A DNA stretch of 36,835 nt. Origin: an uncultured Selenomonas sp. (lineage in GTDB: Bacteria > Bacillota > Negativicutes > Selenomonadales > Selenomonadaceae). The notes beneath the pieces were generated by a model, which saw nothing but the letters and a program-made list of their open reading frames with translations, made no database searches and had not been told where the DNA came from. Positions 23,286 through 33,101 of this stretch are shown one piece after another (the first letter of the stretch is position 1; each line of letters opens with the position of its first letter). The position numbers and the translations under genes are program-made. The stretch is taken from assembly GCA_902766095.1 (NCBI GenBank), contig CACXCN010000077.1:1-36835 (forward strand), in the 5' to 3' direction.

Positions 23286-23316
23286 GCCTGTTGCCTGACG
23301 GACCATTCACATAAAT

Positions 23317-23362
23317 AAATAAGGCATTGAAGATGCGTTGATATCTTCAATGCCTTATTTTT
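23317..23362. terminator. Bidirectional terminator between aspS and the APC permease
   Basis: A perfect 18-bp stem (23317-23334 with 23343-23360) has an 8-base loop. It is flanked by A-rich sequence on the left and T-rich sequence on the right, so it can stop transcription from both converging genes. Confidence 0.9.
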
Positions 23363-23378
23363 GTGTCCGCTTATTCAA

Positions 23379-24812
23379 TCAGTTGGTTTGGACTTCTGCT
23401 TGGGCTTGGGCCTCGGCCTCTTTCTGTTTCATGTTCTGGCGGTAGAGGTAGTAGACTGGGTCCTCCATCGCCATGACGGTGCGTAGGGGGACGCGTTGGA
23501 ATATGGGCAGATGGAGGCGGACGCGCACCCAGAAGAAAGCATAAACGGCCAGCAGCACCAGCAGGGCCAGTGACAGCAGGAATATCTCGATGCGCTCCGT
23601 CGGATCCGGCGAAATATTATACATCATATAGACCGTCATGATGATGGCGAATATCTGCAGGAACGGGTAGAGCGGAACTTTGTAGGTACGCGGTACGGTC
23701 GGCATGGTGTGGCGCAGGACCATGACATCGATGTGCGTGACGATGTAGGAGATCATCCAGAACAGCGAAGCCGCGAGAATCAGGAACTGTACGGCAGCAC
23801 CGCTCGAGAGACCTGTGGCCTCGATGATGATGGTGGCGATACCGAGCAGCCAGATGACGACGTAGGGAGCGCCGTGGCGGTTCTTGCGCTGGAACACGGC
23901 CGGCAGCAGACCGATTTTCGCCATACCGCAGCAGACTTCGGCCACGGAGCCGATGATGGAGTTCTGCGTGCTGATGGCCGCGAGCAGCGCGGCGAATATC
24001 ATCCAATAGCGACCAAAGGGCCCGAGCACGCTCACGGCATACAGGATGTGCGGCGAGTCGGAGGCACCGGCCTCGGCCCAGGGGACGTAGTTGCTGAAGC
24101 CGAGCACCATGAGCGACTGGATGACGCACATGATGAACAGGCTCAGGAACATGGCCCGCGGGATGTCGCGCTTTGGCTGGGACATGTCCTTGCCGAGCGG
24201 GATGATGAATTCGGAAGCGATGAAGAGCCAGAAAGCCGTAGTTGTCAGCGGCAGGATGTCTGAAAGGCTCGTCGACAGGACCGCCGGCTGGTCGACTTCC
24301 ACGCCAGTGCCGAGTCCGAGGGCGCCGATGAGCGAGAGACCGAGCAGGGAGATGACCATGAACGTGGCCAGGATGCACTGGACGAATGTCGAGAGCGTGA
24401 CTCCGCGCAGGTTGATGTACATGAGCACGATGGTGAGCGTCACGCTGTAGAAGGCAATCGGCAGCCCGTCGCCGAGGAACTCGGCCATGACATTGGCGAA
24501 CATGGCGCCTTCGGCCGGAGCCGCGAATATATTGCTGATGAAGTAGCCGCCGAGCATCGTGACGATCGTCGCAAAAGGACCGAGACCGACGAGCGTATAC
24601 TGGGCGAGGCCGCCGGTCAGGTTCGGCATGAGGGCATTGAGCTCGGCGTTCGATGCCGCTGCAAGCATATTCACGAAGCAGACGAGTATCATCGCGAATA
24701 TGAAGGTAGTACCCACGGCACTGGCGCCGCCAGCGAGCGGAATGAAGCAGCTCGTGGCAATGATCATGCCGACACCCGTCGAGACTGCGCCAAAGAGTCC
24801 GATCTTATTCAT
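23379..24812 (-). CDS. APC-superfamily amino-acid/amine permease
   Basis: The 477-residue inner-membrane protein has about 12 hydrophobic helices. Helix 1 carries the APC glycine motif (LFGAVSTGVGMIIATSCFIPLAGG). The conserved loop after helix 6 and 7 reads FIIPLGKDMSQPKRDIPRAM. The C-terminus is a hydrophilic Gln/Ala/Glu-rich tail. I use the ATG at 24812 because AAAGGAGT lies just before it; an upstream in-frame ATG at 24866 has no site. Substrate cannot be read from sequence. It is divergent from the LuxR regulator of a urea/guanidine carboxylase cluster, so guanidine, arginine-related compounds or another cationic nitrogen source are plausible substrates (inference). Confidence 0.85.
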   Translation of the reverse strand: MNKIGLFGAVSTGVGMIIATSCFIPLAGGASAVGTTFIFAMILVCFVNMLAAASNAELNALMPNLTGGLAQYTLVGLGPFATIVTMLGGYFISNIFAAPAEGAMFANVMAEFLGDGLPIAFYSVTLTIVLMYINLRGVTLSTFVQCILATFMVISLLGLSLIGALGLGTGVEVDQPAVLSTSLSDILPLTTTAFWLFIASEFIIPLGKDMSQPKRDIPRAMFLSLFIMCVIQSLMVLGFSNYVPWAEAGASDSPHILYAVSVLGPFGRYWMIFAALLAAISTQNSIIGSVAEVCCGMAKIGLLPAVFQRKNRHGAPYVVIWLLGIATIIIEATGLSSGAAVQFLILAASLFWMISYIVTHIDVMVLRHTMPTVPRTYKVPLYPFLQIFAIIMTVYMMYNISPDPTERIEIFLLSLALLVLLAVYAFFWVRVRLHLPIFQRVPLRTVMAMEDPVYYLYRQNMKQKEAEAQAQAEVQTN

Positions 24813-24852
24813 AGGAAAGACTCCTTTCGGTAGAAGGAAAAACGATACTGTC

Positions 24853-24881
24853 ATTATACCGTGCACGAGTGTCTATGACGA
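24853..24881 (-). promoter_or_regulatory. Putative promoter of the APC permease
   Basis: On the minus strand TCGTCA (complement of 24876-24881) and TATAAT (complement of 24853-24858) are 17 bases apart, about 40 bases upstream of the start. The stretch 24882-24985 between the two divergent promoters is AT-rich and is where operators would be expected; I see no clear dyad. Confidence 0.55.
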
Positions 24882-24988
24882 TGGACCGAATTACGGTACT
24901 TTTAGTGATAAGTGGAAGACATCATGGAACTTTTTAGGGCTTCGTGGTAGCCAAAAGTATGATATGTGTAAATGAAGTTAACTATAAG

Positions 24989-25017
24989 TAGACAAAAGTT
25001 CGATTAAGATATATAAT
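24989..25017 (+). promoter_or_regulatory. Promoter of the LuxR-type regulator
   Basis: TAGACA at 24989-24994 and TATAAT at 25012-25017 are 17 bases apart. Transcription should begin near 25023, giving a leader of about 105 nt. Confidence 0.7.
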
Positions 25018-25020
25018 GAT

Positions 25021-25120
25021 AGCAAGCTTCCACATGGGAAGCTGCTGAATACAGAACGTCGATGACAATGAAGTCAGTCACAGGGATACTTGTGGCTGGC
25101 TTTTTATTTTTTGCAGGAGG
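25021..25120 (+). promoter_or_regulatory. Structured leader with terminator directly before the LuxR-type gene
   Basis: A 10-bp hairpin with one bulged A (25021-25046: agc-a-agcttcc, loop acatg, ggaagct-gct) opens the leader. A second hairpin, gtcagtcacag (25073-25083) with ttgtggctggc (25090-25100), is followed at once by TTTTTATTTTTT (25101-25112), a good rho-independent terminator. The Shine-Dalgarno GCAGGAGG (25113-25120) abuts the T-run. Hairpin, linker, terminator and ribosome site in this order look like a transcription-attenuation leader. I do not recognise it as a known riboswitch class. Confidence 0.55.
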
Positions 25121-25127
25121 TATCACG

Positions 25128-25895
25128 ATGCTGAAAGAAATGGAATGGTTGACCATCAACAACATACTGCTCGAACTGTACCGCCAGAAAGAGCTCCCGG
25201 CTTTGTCGCAAAAACTCATGCGCGTGCTGCGCATGCTCATTCCGTATACGAAAGGCTACATGCTGCTGCTCGATCATCGCGGTCGTATAAAAGAAGATAA
25301 CAGCTGTTTCATCGGGATGCAGCCCAATGAAGTGGACGCCTATCTGCATAAATATTATTCGCAGGATTACCTCCAGTATCTTTATGAGATCAGCACAGAA
25401 ACCATCGTCTACCGCGATACAGATATCATGGACGATGAGCGTCGGGAGAAGACGGACTTTTTCCGTAAATTCCTGCTGCCCGCGGATATACCGTATGGCT
25501 GCGGTATCATCGTGCGGCACAAGGGGCGGGTATTTGCTGTATTCAATCTGTTCCGCAACAAAGAGCTCGGCGATTTTACGGATAAGGATATCGAGATCCT
25601 GAACATATTGAAGAACCATGTCGAGAATATGCTTGTCGCCCTCACGTCTCTCGACCAGCGTCAGCAATTCGTCGAGCAGTGCTGTGATGAAGCCCGCGAA
25701 TGCTATGGTCTAACCGAGCGTGAGAGCGAGGTGCTGCGCCTGCTCACCGAGGGCCTGTCGAACAGCGAGATCTGCGAGCGCATGACGGTCAGCATATCGA
25801 CCGTGAAGAAGCATATCTATCATCTGTTCGGCAAGATGCAGGTCAAGAGCCGTACCCAGCTCATCCATCAGCTCTATCTGATGCAGGGGGCCTGA
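25128..25895 (+). CDS. LuxR-family (LuxR_C_like HTH) transcriptional regulator
   Basis: The 255-residue protein has an N-terminal, about 180-residue domain reminiscent of a GAF sensor (VRHKGRVFAVFNLFRNKELGDFTDKDIEILNIL). The C-terminal LuxR/NarL helix-turn-helix (YGLTERESEVLRLLTEGLSN, then ICERMTVSISTVKKHIYHLFGKM) spans about 190-250. No receiver domain or autoinducer-binding signature is evident. The start at 25128 is fixed by GCAGGAGG 7 bases upstream. Because it is divergent from the permease and upstream of the carboxylase genes, it is the likely local regulator of this cluster; its ligand is unknown. It is followed by a terminator, so the catabolic genes probably have their own promoter. 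Confidence 0.85.
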   Translation: MLKEMEWLTINNILLELYRQKELPALSQKLMRVLRMLIPYTKGYMLLLDHRGRIKEDNSCFIGMQPNEVDAYLHKYYSQDYLQYLYEISTETIVYRDTDIMDDERREKTDFFRKFLLPADIPYGCGIIVRHKGRVFAVFNLFRNKELGDFTDKDIEILNILKNHVENMLVALTSLDQRQQFVEQCCDEARECYGLTERESEVLRLLTEGLSNSEICERMTVSISTVKKHIYHLFGKMQVKSRTQLIHQLYLMQGA

Positions 25896-25992
25896 CGGCT
25901 GGCGGCGTGCCGGATCGCGGGGAGGCTGTCGGCAGGGGCGCCTGGTACTAATAGACCACTACTGGAACTTTAGGGGAAATAAATTCGCGCTT

Positions 25993-26024
25993 ACGGTCCA
26001 TTGTGAGATGGGCCGTTTTTTTTT
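25993..26024 (+). terminator. Rho-independent terminator after the LuxR-type gene
   Basis: A 9-bp stem, acggtccat (25993-26001) with atgggccgt (26008-26016), has a 6-base loop and a run of nine T. The following 26025-26111 contains a small GC-rich dyad (caggg at 26061 with ccctg at 26077, flanked by gccg/cggc) but no clear promoter. Confidence 0.85.
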
Positions 26025-26111
26025 ATCATAAAAGTGCAAGAAGCAAGCAGGCGTCGCCGGCAGGGAAAAGCCGCTGCCCTGGTTATCGGCTATTGATGGG
26101 AGGAATTCATC

Positions 26112-26831
26112 ATGCAGAAGATATTCACGAAAATTTTCCGTCCCGGTGAGAAGTGGTCCGGGAATATAGGCCGCCATAAATATTTGCATTTCAAGGCACT
26201 CGGCGATGATGCGAACCTGTCGCTGCTGCTCTACAACATGCTCGATACATCGGAGCGCTACAATATGCCGGATACGCTGAAGGCCCAGTACACGGCACAT
26301 CTGACGCAGGGCAACGTGCTCATGAGCGACAACGGCCGCGTGCTGGCCAGCATCACTCAGGACAGCCTCGGCTGGCACGATACGATCGCCGGGTACAGCA
26401 CGCGGGCCATGACGGATGAGAAATACGGCATCAAGACGTACCAGCAGGCCCGTAACGACTACTACCGCTGCGGCGAGGAGAATTTCAAGGTCGAGCTCAT
26501 GCGCAACAACATGGATAAGGGCGATCTCGTGCCATGCGTGAATCTGTTCTCCAAGGTTTATGTGAATCTCGACGGCAGCATGCACTATGACCCGGAACAT
26601 TGCAAAGAGGGGGCTACCGTGACGCTGCGCACCGAGATGGATATCATATTCATCGCCTCGAATACGCCGAATCCGCTGAATCCCTCGACCGAGTATCCGA
26701 CGAGCTCCATCATCATGGATGTCTATGATGCGCCGGCTCCCGACCTCATGGATGAGTGCGTGCAGCATCGTCAGGAGAACTATAGGGCTTTCGAGAATAC
26801 CTGGGACTATTACAATCTGCTGGGCCGCTGA
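26112..26831 (+). CDS. Urea-carboxylase-associated protein 1 (DUF1989), likely carboxyguanidine deiminase subunit
   Basis: The 239-residue protein belongs to the DUF1989/urea-carboxylase-associated family. Typical segments are FRPGEKWSGNIGRHKYLHF, QDSLGWHDTIAGYSTRAM and LVPCVNLFSKVYVNLDGSM. Pairs of DUF1989 proteins next to urea-carboxylase-like enzymes have been shown in other bacteria to form a heteromeric carboxyguanidine deiminase, releasing ammonia to give allophanate. Conserved His and Cys residues (GWHDT, VPCVN) could serve metal binding or catalysis; that role is inferred. GGGAGG precedes the ATG. The second DUF1989 gene follows after 43 bases. Confidence 0.85.
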   Translation: MQKIFTKIFRPGEKWSGNIGRHKYLHFKALGDDANLSLLLYNMLDTSERYNMPDTLKAQYTAHLTQGNVLMSDNGRVLASITQDSLGWHDTIAGYSTRAMTDEKYGIKTYQQARNDYYRCGEENFKVELMRNNMDKGDLVPCVNLFSKVYVNLDGSMHYDPEHCKEGATVTLRTEMDIIFIASNTPNPLNPSTEYPTSSIIMDVYDAPAPDLMDECVQHRQENYRAFENTWDYYNLLGR

Positions 26832-26874
26832 ACCGCAGATGATGCAGATGACCATATAGCGAGGAGGATATAAA

Positions 26875-27522
26875 ATGTACGGACTCATAGAGAAAGAAAG
26901 CAACCTGAAAGAAAGCGATGCCGTGTACAGCGAGACGCTCGGAGCCGGACTCGGCTGGGTGCATCTCCTGAAGAAGGGCCAGAGCTTCCGCATCGTCGAT
27001 ATCGAGGGCAACCAGGCCGTCGATACGACGTTCTACGATGCGGAGGATACGCAGGACCACTACGGCGCGGTCGCCACCATCGTCGCGCAACAGAATATAT
27101 ACCTCACGACCGGCTCAATCTTGCGGGCGGAGTCGGGCAAGCCGATGCTCGAGATAACGGCTGATAAGACGGGCCGTCATGATACGCTCGGCGGTGCCTG
27201 CTCTTCCCAGAGCAATACGGTCCGCTATGCGCGGGAAAAGCGCTACATGCAGAGCTGCCGTGATGACTTCATGCTGGCGCTCGCGAATACGGATCTGCCG
27301 ATACGCAAGCGCGATCTGGCTCCGAATATCAACTTCTTCATGAATGTGCCGGTCACGCCGGAGGGCGGGCTGAAGTTCGACGATGGCGTATCGGCGCCGG
27401 GCAACTATGTCGAGATGAAGGCCCTGCGCGACGTGTACATACTCATCAGCAACTGCCCACAGCTCAACAATCCCTGCAATGCCTATAATCCTACGCCGGT
27501 CAAACTGCTGATCTGGGATTAA
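26875..27522 (+). CDS. Urea-carboxylase-associated protein 2 (DUF1989), likely second carboxyguanidine deiminase subunit
   Basis: The 215-residue partner of the preceding gene shares the DUF1989 fold, with KKGQSFRIVDIEGNQAVDTTFYDAED near the N-terminus. Central GRHDTLGGACSSQSN lines up with GWHDTIAGYST of the first protein. The C-terminal LAPNINFFMNVPVTPEGGLKF lines up with VPCVNLFSKVYVNLDGSM. The two are therefore distant paralogues with a shared H-D-T core. It is 41 bases upstream of the carboxylase, with GAGGAGG before its ATG. Function as for its partner, by family knowledge and context. Confidence 0.85.
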   Translation: MYGLIEKESNLKESDAVYSETLGAGLGWVHLLKKGQSFRIVDIEGNQAVDTTFYDAEDTQDHYGAVATIVAQQNIYLTTGSILRAESGKPMLEITADKTGRHDTLGGACSSQSNTVRYAREKRYMQSCRDDFMLALANTDLPIRKRDLAPNINFFMNVPVTPEGGLKFDDGVSAPGNYVEMKALRDVYILISNCPQLNNPCNAYNPTPVKLLIWD

Positions 27523-27563
27523 GAAAACAACCGGGTTATGTAAATGTAAAGGAATGACAGCTT

Positions 27564-30500
27564 ATGTTCACAAAAGTACTCATAGCGAACCGTGGCGCCA
27601 TAGCTGTACGCATCGAGCGCACGCTGCGCCGTATGGGCGTAGGCAGCGTGGCCGTCTACTCCCAGGCCGACCAGGACAGTCTCCATGTGCGCAATGCCGA
27701 TGAGGCGGTATGCCTGGGCGATGGCAGCGTGCAGGATACATATCTGGCGATTGACAAGATCATCGCGGCAGCCAGGGAGACCGGAGCACAGGCTGTTCAT
27801 CCCGGCTATGGCTTTCTGAGTGAGAATACCGACTTTGCGGCGGCCTGCGCGGCCGAGGGCATCACGTTCATCGGCCCGACAGCGGAGCAGATCAAGCTGT
27901 TCGGCCTCAAGCACTCAGCCCGGAAACTGGCCGCTGAGGCTGGTGTGCCGCTGGCTCCCGGGACTGGATTGCTGAGCGGTGTGGACGAGGCAGCCGGAGC
28001 GGCGTCCCGCATTGGTTATCCGGTCATGCTCAAGAGCACGGCCGGCGGTGGCGGCATCGGCATCCGCATCTGCCATAACGAGGCAGAGCTGCGGGCGGCC
28101 TATGACAAGGTCACATATCTCGCGCGCCGCAACTTCGGCGATGACGGGGTGTTCCTCGAGAAATATGTCGAGCGGGCGCGTCATGTCGAGGTGCAGATAT
28201 TCGGCACGGAGGGCGAGGTCACGGCGCTCGGCGAGCGCGACTGCTCCGTGCAGCGCCGCAATCAGAAAGTCATCGAGGAATCGCCGGCTCCGAACCTGCC
28301 GGACCATGTGCGTCAGGCCATGTATGAGGCCGCAGAACGGCTGGCCGCTGCGGCGTCGTACCGCAATGCCGGCACGGTCGAGTTCCTCTACGATGAGGCG
28401 ACAGAGGAATTCTACTTCCTCGAGGTCAATACGCGCCTGCAGGTCGAGCATGGCATCACCGAGGAGGTCATGGGCGTCGATCTCGTCGAGTGGATGGTCC
28501 GCGAAGCCGCCGGCGAGCTGCACGATATCAAGTCCCTGGTGCCAACGAAGCCACTAGGGCATGCCATAGAGGTCCGCGTCTATGCGGAGGATGCACAGAA
28601 TGATTTCCGTCCCGGCACGGGGCGTGTCGATGACTGCGTATTCGCGGATGATACGCGCGTCGAGACCTGGATTCGCAAGAATGTCGTCGTGACGTCGCTC
28701 TATGATCCGATGCTTGCCAAGCTCATCGTGCACGGGCGCGACCGGGCCGAGGCCCTGCAGAAGATGCAGCATACGCTGGCAGCCACGAAGATCTACGGCG
28801 TCACGACGAATATCCCATATCTCGCGGCCATTATCGCGCGGGCGGATTATCAGGCCGGCCATCTCTATACGAAGATGCTTGATGGCTTCACGGCCGAGGA
28901 GCATCGTCTCGAGGTGCTGGACGGCGGCGTGCAGTCGACGGTGCAGGATTATCCGGGCATGATCGGCTATTGGACCGTCGGCGTACCGCCCTGCGGCGCA
29001 ATGGACAGCTACAGTTTCCGTCTCGGCAACCGTCTGCTCGGCAATGAGGAGGGGGCAGCGGGCATCGAGATGACGATGCGGGGCGGTCGCTATCGCTTCC
29101 GCACCTGCACGAGCTTCTGCCTCACGGGTGCCGACATGGAGGCCGAGCTCGATGGCGAGCCGGTGCCGCGCTATCGCGTGACGCAGGCCGTGGCCGGTCA
29201 GGTGCTGAGCCTCGGTACAGCGAAGACCGGCATGCGGGCCTATCTGCTCGTGGCAGGCGGCATCGATGTGCCGCAGATCATGGGCAGCCGCTCGACATTC
29301 GTCGATGGCAAATTCGGCGGTCACAACGGCCGCGCCCTGCGCACCGGCGATACGCTGACGCTGACGGAGGCCTGCCACAGCAGTACCTGCGCCTCGATGC
29401 CGCTCGAGTATACGCCGGCTATCACGCACGACTGGACGCTTGGCGTGCTGGCCGGGCCGCAGCCGACCGGAGAGTATCTGGCGCCCGAGTATCTGCAGAC
29501 GCTCACGAGTGCCGAATACACCGTGAACTTCAACAGTGCCCGCACGGGTGTCCGCCTCAATGGCCCGGTACCGCAGTGGGTTCGCGAGGATGGCGGCGAG
29601 GCGGGCCTGCATCCGTCGAACATCCATGACAATGCCTATGCCATCGGCACGCTCGATCTCACGGGCGATCAGTCCATATTGCTCGGTCCGGACGGGCCGA
29701 GCCTCGGCGGCTTCGTCTGCCCGGTGACGCTCGCGAAGGCCGAGCTTTGGAAGATGGGACAGCTGCATCCGGGTGACAAGGTCCATTTCCAGCTGCTGAC
29801 GCTCGAGCAGGCAGCAGCGATGCGGCAGGCCATGGCGAAGAATATCGCATTCGACTACACGCGCGTGGAGCTGCCACATACGCCGGCTGATGTAAAGGCC
29901 GATGATGCCATACTGGCGCAGGGCAGTGCCGATGACATGCCTTACTGCGTGCGGCTCGACGGCGAGGAGAACATCCTCATCGAATTCGGCGCGATGGAGC
30001 TCTCGATCGATTCCCGATTCCGCGCGCATATACTCATGCAGCGCCTGGCGGAGCAGAATCTGCCGATCATCGACATGACGCCGGGTATCCGCTCGCTGCA
30101 GGTTCATTTCGACATCGATCAGACGGATGCCCGGGCAATGGCACAAATCGTCGTGGCTGCGAATGAGAAGCTCGGCGATATCGAGGACATCACGGTGCCG
30201 TCGCGCATCATCCATCTGCCATTGTCCTGGGATGATCCGCAAACGCAGCTCGCGGCCCGCCGCTATCAGGAGACGACGCGCCCTGATGCGCCATGGTGCC
30301 CGAGCAATCCTGAGTTCATCCGCCGCATCAATGGCCTTGAGTCGCTCGATGACGTGAAGAACATCGTATTCTCAGCGGACTACCTCGTGCTCGGCCTCGG
30401 CGATGTCTATCTCGGTGCACCGGTCGCGGCGCCGCTCGATCCGCGCCATCGTCTCGTCACGACGAAGTACAATCCTGCCCGGCCTTGGACGCCGGAGAAT

Positions 30501-31169
30501 GCCGTCGGCATCGGCGGTGCCTACCTCTGCGTCTACGGCATGGAGGGGCCTGGCGGCTATCAGTTCGTCGGCCGGACCATCCAGATGTGGAATCCGCTCG
30601 AGACGACAGAGAATTTCCCTGAGGGCAAGCCCTGGTTGCTGAACTTCTTCGATCAGATAAAATTCTATCCCGTCAGTGCCGAGGAAATACTGCGCGACCG
30701 TAATGATTTCCTGCGCGGCAAGTTCCATATCGATATCGAGCCGTCGACGTTCCATCTTGGCGAGTACAAGAAATACCTCGCGAGCATCAAAGAGGAAAGT
30801 GCGAGATTCAAGGCTCATCAGGAAGCGGCGTTCGAGGCGGAGAAGCAGCGCTGGCACGAGCAGGGACTTGATACGTTCGTATCCGATGTACCGGAGGCGG
30901 CCACTCCGGAGGAGGTCGTGCTGCCCGAGGGCAGTGATCCGGTCTGTGCGACGGTGCCCGGCAGCGTATGGAAGGTGCTCGTCGCCGAAGGACAGCAGGT
31001 ACAGAAGGGCGATACGGTCGCCATACTCGAGAGCATGAAGATGGAGATACCGGTCCAGGCCGGAGAGGCCGGCTGCGTGACCGCGCTCTATATGAACCCC
31101 GGTGAGCAGGTGGAGGCAGGCCAGATACTGGCTGGCCTCGAGCAGAGTGAGGAGGCGAAGCGCGCATGA
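27564..31169 (+). CDS. Biotin-dependent urea/guanidine carboxylase
   Basis: The 1201-residue enzyme carries every step of carboxylation in one chain. The biotin carboxylase domain is about 1-445: LIANRGAIAVRIERTLRRMG, the ATP-grasp loop KSTAGGGGIGIRI near 156-168, and EVNTRLQVEHGITEEV near 287-302. The H-G in the last motif, rather than H-P, is typical of urea carboxylases. KipA-like (AHS2) and KipI-like (AHS1) domains follow, about 455-760 and 770-1010, and form the carboxyltransferase with LGLGDVYLGAPVAAPLDPRH. The C-terminal biotinyl domain has the attachment Lys1159 in ESMKMEI. Next to two DUF1989 genes, guanidine is the more likely substrate than urea. It overlaps the hydrolase gene by 4 bases. 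Confidence 0.93.
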   Translation: MFTKVLIANRGAIAVRIERTLRRMGVGSVAVYSQADQDSLHVRNADEAVCLGDGSVQDTYLAIDKIIAAARETGAQAVHPGYGFLSENTDFAAACAAEGITFIGPTAEQIKLFGLKHSARKLAAEAGVPLAPGTGLLSGVDEAAGAASRIGYPVMLKSTAGGGGIGIRICHNEAELRAAYDKVTYLARRNFGDDGVFLEKYVERARHVEVQIFGTEGEVTALGERDCSVQRRNQKVIEESPAPNLPDHVRQAMYEAAERLAAAASYRNAGTVEFLYDEATEEFYFLEVNTRLQVEHGITEEVMGVDLVEWMVREAAGELHDIKSLVPTKPLGHAIEVRVYAEDAQNDFRPGTGRVDDCVFADDTRVETWIRKNVVVTSLYDPMLAKLIVHGRDRAEALQKMQHTLAATKIYGVTTNIPYLAAIIARADYQAGHLYTKMLDGFTAEEHRLEVLDGGVQSTVQDYPGMIGYWTVGVPPCGAMDSYSFRLGNRLLGNEEGAAGIEMTMRGGRYRFRTCTSFCLTGADMEAELDGEPVPRYRVTQAVAGQVLSLGTAKTGMRAYLLVAGGIDVPQIMGSRSTFVDGKFGGHNGRALRTGDTLTLTEACHSSTCASMPLEYTPAITHDWTLGVLAGPQPTGEYLAPEYLQTLTSAEYTVNFNSARTGVRLNGPVPQWVREDGGEAGLHPSNIHDNAYAIGTLDLTGDQSILLGPDGPSLGGFVCPVTLAKAELWKMGQLHPGDKVHFQLLTLEQAAAMRQAMAKNIAFDYTRVELPHTPADVKADDAILAQGSADDMPYCVRLDGEENILIEFGAMELSIDSRFRAHILMQRLAEQNLPIIDMTPGIRSLQVHFDIDQTDARAMAQIVVAANEKLGDIEDITVPSRIIHLPLSWDDPQTQLAARRYQETTRPDAPWCPSNPEFIRRINGLESLDDVKNIVFSADYLVLGLGDVYLGAPVAAPLDPRHRLVTTKYNPARPWTPENAVGIGGAYLCVYGMEGPGGYQFVGRTIQMWNPLETTENFPEGKPWLLNFFDQIKFYPVSAEEILRDRNDFLRGKFHIDIEPSTFHLGEYKKYLASIKEESARFKAHQEAAFEAEKQRWHEQGLDTFVSDVPEAATPEEVVLPEGSDPVCATVPGSVWKVLVAEGQQVQKGDTVAILESMKMEIPVQAGEAGCVTALYMNPGEQVEAGQILAGLEQSEEAKRA

Positions 31170-32521
31170 CGAAGCGTGTACCCGATACATTGACGATAGA
31201 GGGCCTGCATGAGGCCTATGATGCCGGACTGACGCCGGCCGAGGTCATAGCAGCGATCAAGGAGCGCAGTGCCGGACTCACGGCAAAGCATATCTGGATC
31301 ACACCGCCCGATGAAATGCCGCTCGACTCCTATATCGCGGCCCTGCCGGAGCGCGACTATGAGCGCTATCCGCTCTGGGGCATACCGTTTGCCGTGAAGG
31401 ACAATATCGATGTCGCCGGGGTGCCGACGACGGCAGCCTGCCCGGCCTATGCCTACACGCCGGAGAAGAGTGCCACGGTCGTAGCGAAGCTCATGGCGAC
31501 AGGAGCCATCCCGGTCGGCAAGACGAATCTCGACCAGTTCGCGACTGGGCTCGTCGGGACGCGCAGTCCCTATGGCGAGGTAGAGAATGCCTACGTCCCG
31601 GAACGCATCAGCGGCGGCTCGAGCTCGGGCTCTGCAGTGAGCGTAGCGACGGGGCTGGCGGCTTTCGCCCTCGGTACGGATACGGCCGGCTCGGGGCGCG
31701 TGCCGGCGATGCTGCAGGCACTCGTGGGGTACAAGCCTCCGCTCGGGGCCTGGAGCACGCGCGGCGTCGTACCAGCCTGTGCGAGTCTCGACTGCGTGAC
31801 GGTATTCGCACATGACCTCGAGGAGGCAAAGGCCGTGGACCGTATGGCCCGCGGCTATGATGCGGATTGCTGCTGGTCCCGGCATATCGAGCACCAGGCT
31901 GACGCCTTGCCGGAGCGCATACTCATAGCGGACGAGGCGGAACTCACCTTCTTCGGCGTAGCACCCGATGATGCCCGGGCCAAATGGCGGGCGTCCGTAG
32001 CGCGGCTGAAGAAGCTGGGCGTGCCCGCTGAGATCATATCGATCAAAGACTTCATGGACGCGGCCAAGTTGCTCTATGATGGTGCATTCGTCGCGGAGCG
32101 CTGGGCCGATCTCGGTGATTTCGTCCGGTCGCATGGCGATGAGGTGTTCTCGGTCACCAAAGGCATATTGGAGACGGGCGGCAAGAGCGAGTATACGGCG
32201 GCCCGTCTGTTCCTGGATATGCACAAGCTACAGGAATACCGCCATCGGGCAGCCGCTGTCCTGCAGGGGGCAGTGCTTGTCATGCCGACGGCGGGCGGCA
32301 CGTTCACGCGCGATATGGTGCGTGACGATCCGGTGGCCACGAACAGCCAGATGGGGCTTTATACGAATCACTGCAATCTGCTCGACCTCGCGGCCATAGC
32401 AGTGCCCGAGGACAACCAGGGCAGGGAGAATCCTTTCGGCATCACCATATTCGCCCTGCACGAGGCAGAGCACCTCATATGCGGCACGGCTGCCGCCTTC
32501 CTGGCCGGCTCAGGCTGCTGA
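31166..32521 (+). CDS. atzF: Allophanate hydrolase, amidase-domain-only form
   Basis: The 451-residue amidase-signature enzyme hydrolyses allophanate toward ammonia and CO2. The Ser-cisSer-Lys triad is visible: K78 in FAVKDNID, the glycine/serine loop at 150-156 (GGSSSGS), and the nucleophile S176 in LGTDTAGSGRVPA. The last wording is characteristic of allophanate hydrolases rather than GatA. Known AtzF and DUR1,2 hydrolases are about 600 residues, with a C-terminal domain that processes the first product. Here the protein ends after the amidase domain, with a normal stop and no remnant downstream. The ATG overlaps the carboxylase stop (ATGA), so the two are translationally coupled. Confidence 0.9.
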   Translation: MTKRVPDTLTIEGLHEAYDAGLTPAEVIAAIKERSAGLTAKHIWITPPDEMPLDSYIAALPERDYERYPLWGIPFAVKDNIDVAGVPTTAACPAYAYTPEKSATVVAKLMATGAIPVGKTNLDQFATGLVGTRSPYGEVENAYVPERISGGSSSGSAVSVATGLAAFALGTDTAGSGRVPAMLQALVGYKPPLGAWSTRGVVPACASLDCVTVFAHDLEEAKAVDRMARGYDADCCWSRHIEHQADALPERILIADEAELTFFGVAPDDARAKWRASVARLKKLGVPAEIISIKDFMDAAKLLYDGAFVAERWADLGDFVRSHGDEVFSVTKGILETGGKSEYTAARLFLDMHKLQEYRHRAAAVLQGAVLVMPTAGGTFTRDMVRDDPVATNSQMGLYTNHCNLLDLAAIAVPEDNQGRENPFGITIFALHEAEHLICGTAAAFLAGSGC

Positions 32522-32564
32522 GCCTGACTTGTATTCATGTCTGTAAAGAAAAGCGAGGTACACT

Positions 32565-32966
32565 ATGGCAGCAAACAGCAAAGCTAGCGAGGATCAGCTG
32601 GTCCGGGTAGAGATCATCATCAATATGGATCGCATGACGCCGCTCATCAAGCGGCTCTATAAGGAAGGCCTGTACACAGGCGTGACGGTGTTCCAGGCCA
32701 TGGGCTGCGGTGTCGAGAAAGGATCGTTCGAGTTCGAATATGATGATCAGGGCAAGCCGGAGGAATTCCAGTTGCTCCCCAAGACCGTCGTCGTCATCGT
32801 CTGCAAGAAGTCTGAACTGGATAAGCTCATCGAAATCGTGAAGCTCGAGCTTTATTCGGGACATATCGGTGATGGCAAGATATTCGTATCCGATATCGAG
32901 AATGCCATCCGCGTCCGTACCGGTGAGGAAGGTCTGGCAGCCATGCTGCCTTCGCAGGTCGTATGA
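32565..32966 (+). CDS. P-II-family nitrogen regulatory-like protein with divergent T-loop
   Basis: The 133-residue protein has the P-II fold. The nucleotide-binding B-loop is well kept (SGHIGDGKIFVSDIENAI, 98-115), as is the C-loop (RVRTGEEG, 116-123), and LLPKTVVVIV matches the strand after the T-loop. The T-loop itself (about 50-70) differs from GlnB/GlnK: it is about three residues longer, very acidic, and lacks a Tyr at the uridylylation position. A 12-residue N-terminal extension precedes the first strand. It is the last gene of the cluster, 43 bases after atzF, and a terminator follows. It probably senses adenine nucleotides or a pathway metabolite and controls a nearby enzyme or transporter; the target is unknown. 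Confidence 0.85.
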   Translation: MAANSKASEDQLVRVEIIINMDRMTPLIKRLYKEGLYTGVTVFQAMGCGVEKGSFEFEYDDQGKPEEFQLLPKTVVVIVCKKSELDKLIEIVKLELYSGHIGDGKIFVSDIENAIRVRTGEEGLAAMLPSQVV

Positions 32967-32992
32967 TTCCGATGATATAATTGAAAAGAGAA

Positions 32993-33049
32993 CCCTCGTT
33001 CGCGATAGGAGCCGGCGCTTGCGCCGCCATATCGCGGATGAGGGCTTTT
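32993..33049 (+). terminator. Large terminator closing the carboxylase cluster
   Basis: A 14-bp outer stem (32993-33006 with 33031-33044, some G-T pairs) encloses a second GC-rich hairpin (ggcgc/gcgcc at 33013-33024) and is followed by five T. Confidence 0.85.
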
Positions 33050-33101
33050 TAGCGTCAGGGCCGCAGTTTGGAGCAACTTCATACTCTGTCATGCGAATGG
33101 C

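Follow-up and report, generated by a model that had tools for sequence, protein, structure and literature searches.

The 36,835-nt stretch of an uncultured Selenomonas sp. analyzed here (contig CACXCN010000077.1; hereafter the window, whose numbering is used throughout) carries a seven-gene set that appears to encode the known guanidine carboxylase pathway under an unusual control system. The genes, all with strong family profile matches, are those for an APC permease, a LuxR-type regulator, the DUF1989 proteins CgdA and CgdB, a biotin-dependent carboxylase, an allophanate hydrolase and a PII protein (Table 1). We consider it likely that they serve the known pathway, with LuxR activation and nitrogen-status attenuation in place of a riboswitch and with the PII protein tied to uptake.

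According to this model, guanidine would be imported by the APC permease and converted by the carboxylase to carboxyguanidine at the expense of ATP and bicarbonate. CgdAB would deiminate carboxyguanidine to allophanate, from which allophanate hydrolase would release two more ammonia and CO2. Within this branch of rumen and gut anaerobes, control would not lie with a guanidine riboswitch. Rather, we predict that cgdA is activated by the LuxR protein encoded in the cluster, whose ligand domain is GAF-like and whose binding site would be the TAGAACTWWAGTAG element in front of cgdA, on the same helix face as the promoter; the signal is most likely guanidine or an intermediate of the pathway. Where a leader terminator overlaps a hexaloop, as it does before luxR in the window and at some other loci, this would add a check on nitrogen status, most likely via an ANTAR response regulator of the host. 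Uptake is probably gated by the PII protein, much as AmtB is by GlnK.

A preliminary description of this DNA had listed the same seven genes and placed them in an anaerobic diderm Firmicute. The gene calls stand, each with a family profile match, and the nearest named relatives are Selenomonadaceae, which belong to the diderm Negativicutes. That description had also called the combination an unrecognised one. The set is, however, not unique, recurring in more than 20 loci of rumen and gut anaerobes; what sets it apart is how it is controlled, not the permease or the PII protein alone. Scanning one genome per species for relatives yielded 80 named loci, and the identical gene set is found in G024, G048, G240 and many of these loci, so that its arrangement is not due to chance.

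LuxR regulator, putative operator and riboswitch

No Rfam family matched anywhere in the window at the gathering score, and no guanidine aptamer was detected there at a permissive threshold either. The whole host genome (2.34 Mb) lacks a guanidine-I riboswitch, and a hidden guanidine riboswitch was rejected on these results for window and genome. Likewise, none of the LuxR-bearing loci scanned with Rfam showed a guanidine riboswitch. Outside the gut clade, guanidine-I was found upstream of cgdA or nearby in 14 of 17 scanned loci (all but L036, L041 and L047), and all 17 are devoid of LuxR. Judged from these sequences, the LuxR regulator stands where sister loci carry a riboswitch, and this regulatory variant is what the present analysis adds; we found no paper tying LuxR regulators to carboxyguanidine.

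LuxR homologues are present in 26 loci. Among 250 genomes of the class, four encode CgdB and five a strong LuxR orthologue, and four encode both (Fisher p about 3e-8). When 378 genomes were sampled more widely, the genome containing the window was the sole one with the LuxR subfamily, and CgdB turned up in two additional genomes, neither of which has this subfamily. In a tree of the carboxylases, the window falls among Selenomonadaceae, within a clade whose loci bear LuxR; the label "neither" of this tree includes some loci left out of the riboswitch scan. In G240, the LuxR-permease-PII part lies on the same contig as the enzyme part, at a distance of ∼13 kb.

Unsupervised motif finding by expectation maximization (EM) over 24 cgdA upstream regions, with near-copies removed, returned two motifs. 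Where sequences were inspected by eye, the first, cTTTcGGaCAATTGta, overlaps a −35 box that is separated by 17 bp from a −10 box. The second, TAGAACTAAAGTAG, represents the putative LuxR site. Their log-likelihood ratios of 136 and 133 are more than twice those of letter shuffles (45–52 for 16 bp, 54–58 for 18 bp). The TAGAACTWWAGTAG element upstream of cgdA is common to LuxR-bearing loci, and we infer that LuxR is its putative binder because regulator and site co-occur. The second motif is located 27, 36–37, 46–48 or 57–58 bp from the first, i.e., in steps of helical turns, with a spacing of 27 bp in the window. Phasing between operator and promoter, calculated for 20 loci that were picked by eye for a clear second motif in forward or reverse form, gave a Rayleigh R of 0.94 at 10.3 bp, a value reached by none of 20,000 random sets. 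This conserved, helically phased element thus appears to behave like an activator site. Operator matches above threshold fall mostly at the starts of cgdA, luxR or the carboxylase gene, and only one was found in 343 kb of riboswitch-type loci. A second operator copy precedes the carboxylase gene in L032, where this gene lies apart from cgdA, and luxR in L008.

The start of luxR is most likely the one listed in Table 1, at which the homologues begin with MLKE-EW. An AlphaFold model of the protein (pLDDT 91) has structural matches among GAF domains and the LuxR proteins of quorum sensing, including RhlR (Foldseek E 4e-8) and the ligand domain of VqsR (VIA Z 15.9, rmsd [root-mean-square deviation] 3.2 over 164 residues), which makes a ligand domain plausible. 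Like RhlR, CviR and SdiA, the protein combines a GAF-like ligand domain with a GerE helix-turn-helix; in contrast to these quorum sensors, to which it is 14–19% identical, it is linked to a catabolic cluster. The argument for a quorum sensor consists of the fold matches, and no synthase gene is seen beside luxR. Pocket residues were dropped as guanidine-specific marks, with the conserved Tyr and Asp positions also occurring in a distant LuxR protein (G090, L107). The relative in L107 (G090:C4, 8790–13477) is divergent to pxpB/pxpC/biotin carboxylase/pxpA-like genes of a 5-oxoprolinase-type cluster, and a second LuxR orthologue of the host (G000:C82:4909–5646) lies by a fructose-bisphosphatase-like gene and flagellin, with no guanidine genes.

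Putative leader attenuators and the proposed basis of control

The luxR leader of the window (25008–25127) has a fold z of −5.2 and contains an A1/G4 hexaloop overlapping an intrinsic terminator. Such a hexaloop (ANNGNN) over a terminator is the signature of ANTAR targets, most of which are nitrogen genes (PMC3369931). Similar leaders, with different stems but A1/G4 loops, precede luxR in L007, L008, L009, L010, L022, L026 and L087, and cgdA in L011 (twice), L012, L013, L014 and L016. A single REC-ANTAR regulator is encoded in the host genome, next to a PdtaS-like kinase. The same type of single-hexaloop leader precedes the host's amtB-glnK genes at L137 (G000:C1, 2620–2690) and its amt-PII genes at L138 (G000:C69, near 5952, minus strand). 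It also occurs at L136 (G000:C10, 2430–2495), where a reading in which it precedes amtB was rejected; the gene behind it looks like one for a corrinoid-binding (B12) protein.

These leaders resemble the targets of the antiterminators EutV, NasR and AmiR (PMC3369931, PMC8934654) in the A1/G4 hexaloop over a terminator before nitrogen genes and in the presence of a REC-ANTAR regulator in the host. They differ in that a classical target has two hexaloops (PMC3369931) whereas each leader here has one, and contact between protein and RNA is a prediction in our case. The classical dual-hexaloop motif was rejected, as the second hexaloop was not found. The structural study of EutV (PMC8934654) redefined the minimal site as a single hexaloop but did not settle whether such sites serve as ANTAR targets, a question on which the single-hexaloop leaders bear.

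LuxR and the leader elements could instead follow general nitrogen status alone, with no guanidine-specific control. LuxR orphans elsewhere and the attenuator shared with amtB-glnK speak for this explanation, but the operator is almost confined to the starts of guanidine clusters, LuxR travels with the cluster, and it occupies the place of the guanidine-specific riboswitch of sister loci. We therefore regard control by nitrogen status alone as rather unlikely. Nevertheless, several observations weigh against the model of LuxR activation combined with nitrogen-status attenuation. The window's own operator is a weak match (score 9.1, below most loci), the transcribed window leader has no second hexaloop (P1) upstream, and no LuxR gene and no riboswitch is in view in the gut-clade loci L018, L024, L028 and L034. 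Moreover, LuxR orthologues occur as orphans, namely the second copy in the host genome (C82) and one in G013, which lacks CgdB, and the regulator therefore need not sense guanidine only. Finally, the conserved residues of the ligand domain are common to distant homologues near other genes and therefore give no pointer to a guanidine pocket. The wider proposal, that LuxR is a guanidine sensor which replaces the riboswitch across rumen and gut anaerobes while a single-hexaloop ANTAR attenuator ties guanidine use to nitrogen status, is put forward as a tentative possibility. The LuxR family is a concrete and testable candidate, present in cultured strains such as Clostridium tyrobutyricum DSM 2637, Ruminococcus flavefaciens FD-1 and Lactonifactor longoviformis DSM 17459.

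Hexaloop-terminators account for 14 of the 56 terminators in luxR and cgdA leaders but for 10 of the 821 at other places in these loci (p 4e-12; L008, L009, L010 and L087 being near-copies), and were found in 2 of 390 shuffles and in none of 55 cgdA upstream regions of LuxR-less loci. They might still be plain terminators in which the hexaloop is incidental, given that there is only a single hexaloop and that small hairpins can arise on the A-rich 5′ sides of terminators. The enrichment (25% versus 1.2%), the position of the hexaloop-terminators downstream of a predicted promoter, and the retention of A1/G4 while stems differ between genomes, although A1/G4 was also a search criterion, make this explanation unlikely.

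Enzymes and substrate of the pathway

Guanidine carboxylases carry Asp at the positions corresponding to 1330 and 1584 of the K. lactis enzyme, the former of which separates them from urea carboxylases (PMC11410670); this specificity residue is Asp in guanidine enzymes and Asn in urea enzymes (PMC12186494). In an alignment to 5i8i, D698 of the window carboxylase (TIGR02712 position 701) lies opposite N1330 of K. lactis urea amidolyase, and D947, within GLGD, opposite D1584. Of 82 aligned sequences, 78 have Asp and one has Asn (L047, Adhaeribacter) at position 698, and three have no letter there. In L047 (Adhaeribacter aquaticus), the carboxylase with the urea-type Asn belongs to a locus whose CgdAB pair is intact and in which no riboswitch was found.

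CgdA and CgdB are two distinct, adjacent DUF1989 subunits of the UAAP1 and UAAP2 types, both above their family cut-offs. The three cysteines of CgdB, which presumably bind zinc, align with those in the DUF1989 domain of trimethylamine N-oxide demethylase 9q59 and are lacking in CgdA. The guanidine pathway proposed in the preliminary description thus gains support from both DUF1989 proteins and from Asp698, the active-site comparison it had suggested having turned out guanidine-type rather than Asn. On sequence grounds, the assignment of the locus to the known guanidine carboxylase pathway is supported.

The true substrate could instead be a relative of guanidine, for instance methylguanidine or some other small guanidino compound, with guanidine being secondary. 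Vreelandella can feed methylguanidine into the same pathway via added genes (PMC12508155), some relatives carry a second, divergent CgdAB pair, and in G240 the APC permease and a PII gene lie near agmatine-degradation genes. However, no gene for a demethylating dioxygenase or a lyase is seen in the window cluster, whose core is the plain guanidine set, and we judge this alternative distinctly improbable. Alternatively, urea carboxylase and allophanate hydrolase could form an ordinary urea amidolyase pathway to which the DUF1989 pair is accessory. This would fit the NCBIfam names of the enzymes (urea carboxylase; urea amidolyase-associated proteins), and a second urea route would be useful in a host genome in which a search found no urease alpha gene, but it is highly unlikely in view of the Asp at the specificity position and the presence and conservation of both CgdA and CgdB.

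The divergent CgdA/CgdB pair adjoins the canonical pair in L024, L028, L030 and L033, where the divergent CgdB reads CTCHD or CTCQD at the canonical GRHD position; it may act on another carboxylated guanidino compound. The agmatine-related genes of G240 (L104, G240:C19, 3172–6894) encode agmatine deiminase- and N-carbamoylputrescine amidase-like proteins; the permease gene and a PII gene of a second type lie nearby.

The predicted allophanate hydrolase of the window is so named on its amidase domain alone. It scores 480 bits against TIGR02713, under the full-length cut-off of 511, and shows no match to the AH_C domain PF21986, which is present in the L019 homologue. Its nearest solved relatives are the allophanate hydrolases 4gyr, the best match in PDB, and 4cp8, whose solved chain has 487 aa. 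Short forms are common in this clade, and long and short forms alternate among relatives.

Table 1. Features of the guanidine cluster in the window.
Feature	Position	Strand	Evidence
APC-superfamily permease, candidate guanidine importer	23379..24866	-	PF13520/PF00324
Weak putative LuxR site ATGGAACTTTTTAGGG between divergent permease and luxR	24924..24939	+	by eye, below scan threshold, low confidence
Predicted luxR promoter: TAGACA, 17 bp, TATAAT	24989..25017	+	sequence prediction
luxR leader attenuator: hairpin TGAC[AATGAA]GTCA 25063-25076, overlapping terminator hairpin 25070-25103, T-run 25101-25112	25063..25112	+	fold, scan
LuxR-type regulator, GAF-like ligand-domain fold and GerE helix-turn-helix	25128..25895	+	PF00196, 63.6 bits
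Putative LuxR operator upstream of cgdA, TGGAACTTTAGGGGAAAT	25963..25980	+	second EM motif
cgdA promoter: conserved CTTACGGTCCATTGTG 25990-26005, −35 TTGTGA 26001-26006, 17 bp, −10 TATCAT 26024-26029	25990..26029	+	first EM motif, sequence
CgdA (UAAP1, DUF1989), predicted carboxyguanidine deiminase subunit	26112..26831	+	TIGR03425, 267 bits (cut-off 206)
CgdB (UAAP2, DUF1989), predicted carboxyguanidine deiminase subunit with C109, C128, C194	26875..27522	+	TIGR03424, 305 bits (cut-off 285)
Predicted guanidine carboxylase, biotinyl motif ESMKME	27564..31169	+	TIGR02712, 1703 bits (cut-off 1304)
Carboxylase key residues D698; D947	29655-29657; 30402-30404	+	alignment to 5i8i
Predicted allophanate hydrolase, amidase domain only, 451 aa	31166..32521	+	PRK08186, 527 bits, above cut-off
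PII-family protein, altered T-loop, cluster-specific	32565..32966	+	PF00543, 60 bits

Known systems, transport and genomic setting

The guanidine carboxylase pathway (gca, cgdA/cgdB, atzF) is reportedly the subject of work by Schneider in 2020 and Sinn in 2021. Its bearers include Pseudomonas syringae, Raoultella, Vreelandella and ammonia oxidizers (PMC11410670; PMC12508155), with which the window shares the four enzymes, the Asp signature and a neighboring importer gene; the importer candidate of the ammonia oxidizers is also an APC permease. Unlike these systems, the window has a LuxR gene, an operator and a hexaloop attenuator instead of a guanidine riboswitch, a cluster-specific PII gene, and an allophanate hydrolase without the C-terminal domain. 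The guanidine-I clusters of Bacilli (L038, L050, L067, L083 and others) have the same gene order, cgdA-cgdB-carboxylase-allophanate hydrolase, with CgdB 65–71% and the carboxylase about 60% identical to the window proteins, but differ in their aptamer control, the lack of LuxR and APC permeases of another branch. PII genes among riboswitch loci were seen solely in the clostridial-type L045 and L053.

Orthologues of the window permease, 57–77% identical, are found in 11 other LuxR-bearing guanidine clusters or fragments, and another one in G240; the APC permeases of riboswitch-type Bacilli are distant (about 26–28%) and, where found, lie behind their own guanidine-I aptamer (L067, L083). LuxR-bearing loci are of two kinds: some have a PII gene and an APC permease, others an ABC importer with two PII genes immediately ahead of it. 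PII directly precedes the APC permease in L011, L012, L013, L016, L017, L021 and L029. The window PII gene is the fourth of the host genome; its product carries the GDGKIFV and RVRTGE motifs (PF00543, alignment) and has GlnK/PII proteins as nearest solved relatives. Many of these clusters resemble GlnK-AmtB in that a PII gene lies directly beside a transporter gene. In contrast to GlnK-AmtB, the partner is an APC or ABC transporter and the T-loop is altered, and in the window PII and permease lie at opposite ends of the cluster.

The closest relatives of the cluster belong to Selenomonadaceae, Oscillospiraceae, Ruminococcus, Lachnospiraceae, Treponema and clostridia; for many, the record titles indicate an origin in rumen and gut. 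The findings point to guanidine as a nitrogen source for rumen and gut anaerobes. Within Selenomonadaceae the cluster is rare, as it was detected in 3 of 61 genomes of the family in a first sample and in 4 of 250 genomes of the class in a second. In the window, it is located at 23306–33100 between aspS and wecG. These two genes are adjacent in relatives without the cluster, with gaps of ∼110–170 bp in L109, L111, L112 and L114 and of ∼1 kb in L110, and the cluster was therefore probably inserted between them.

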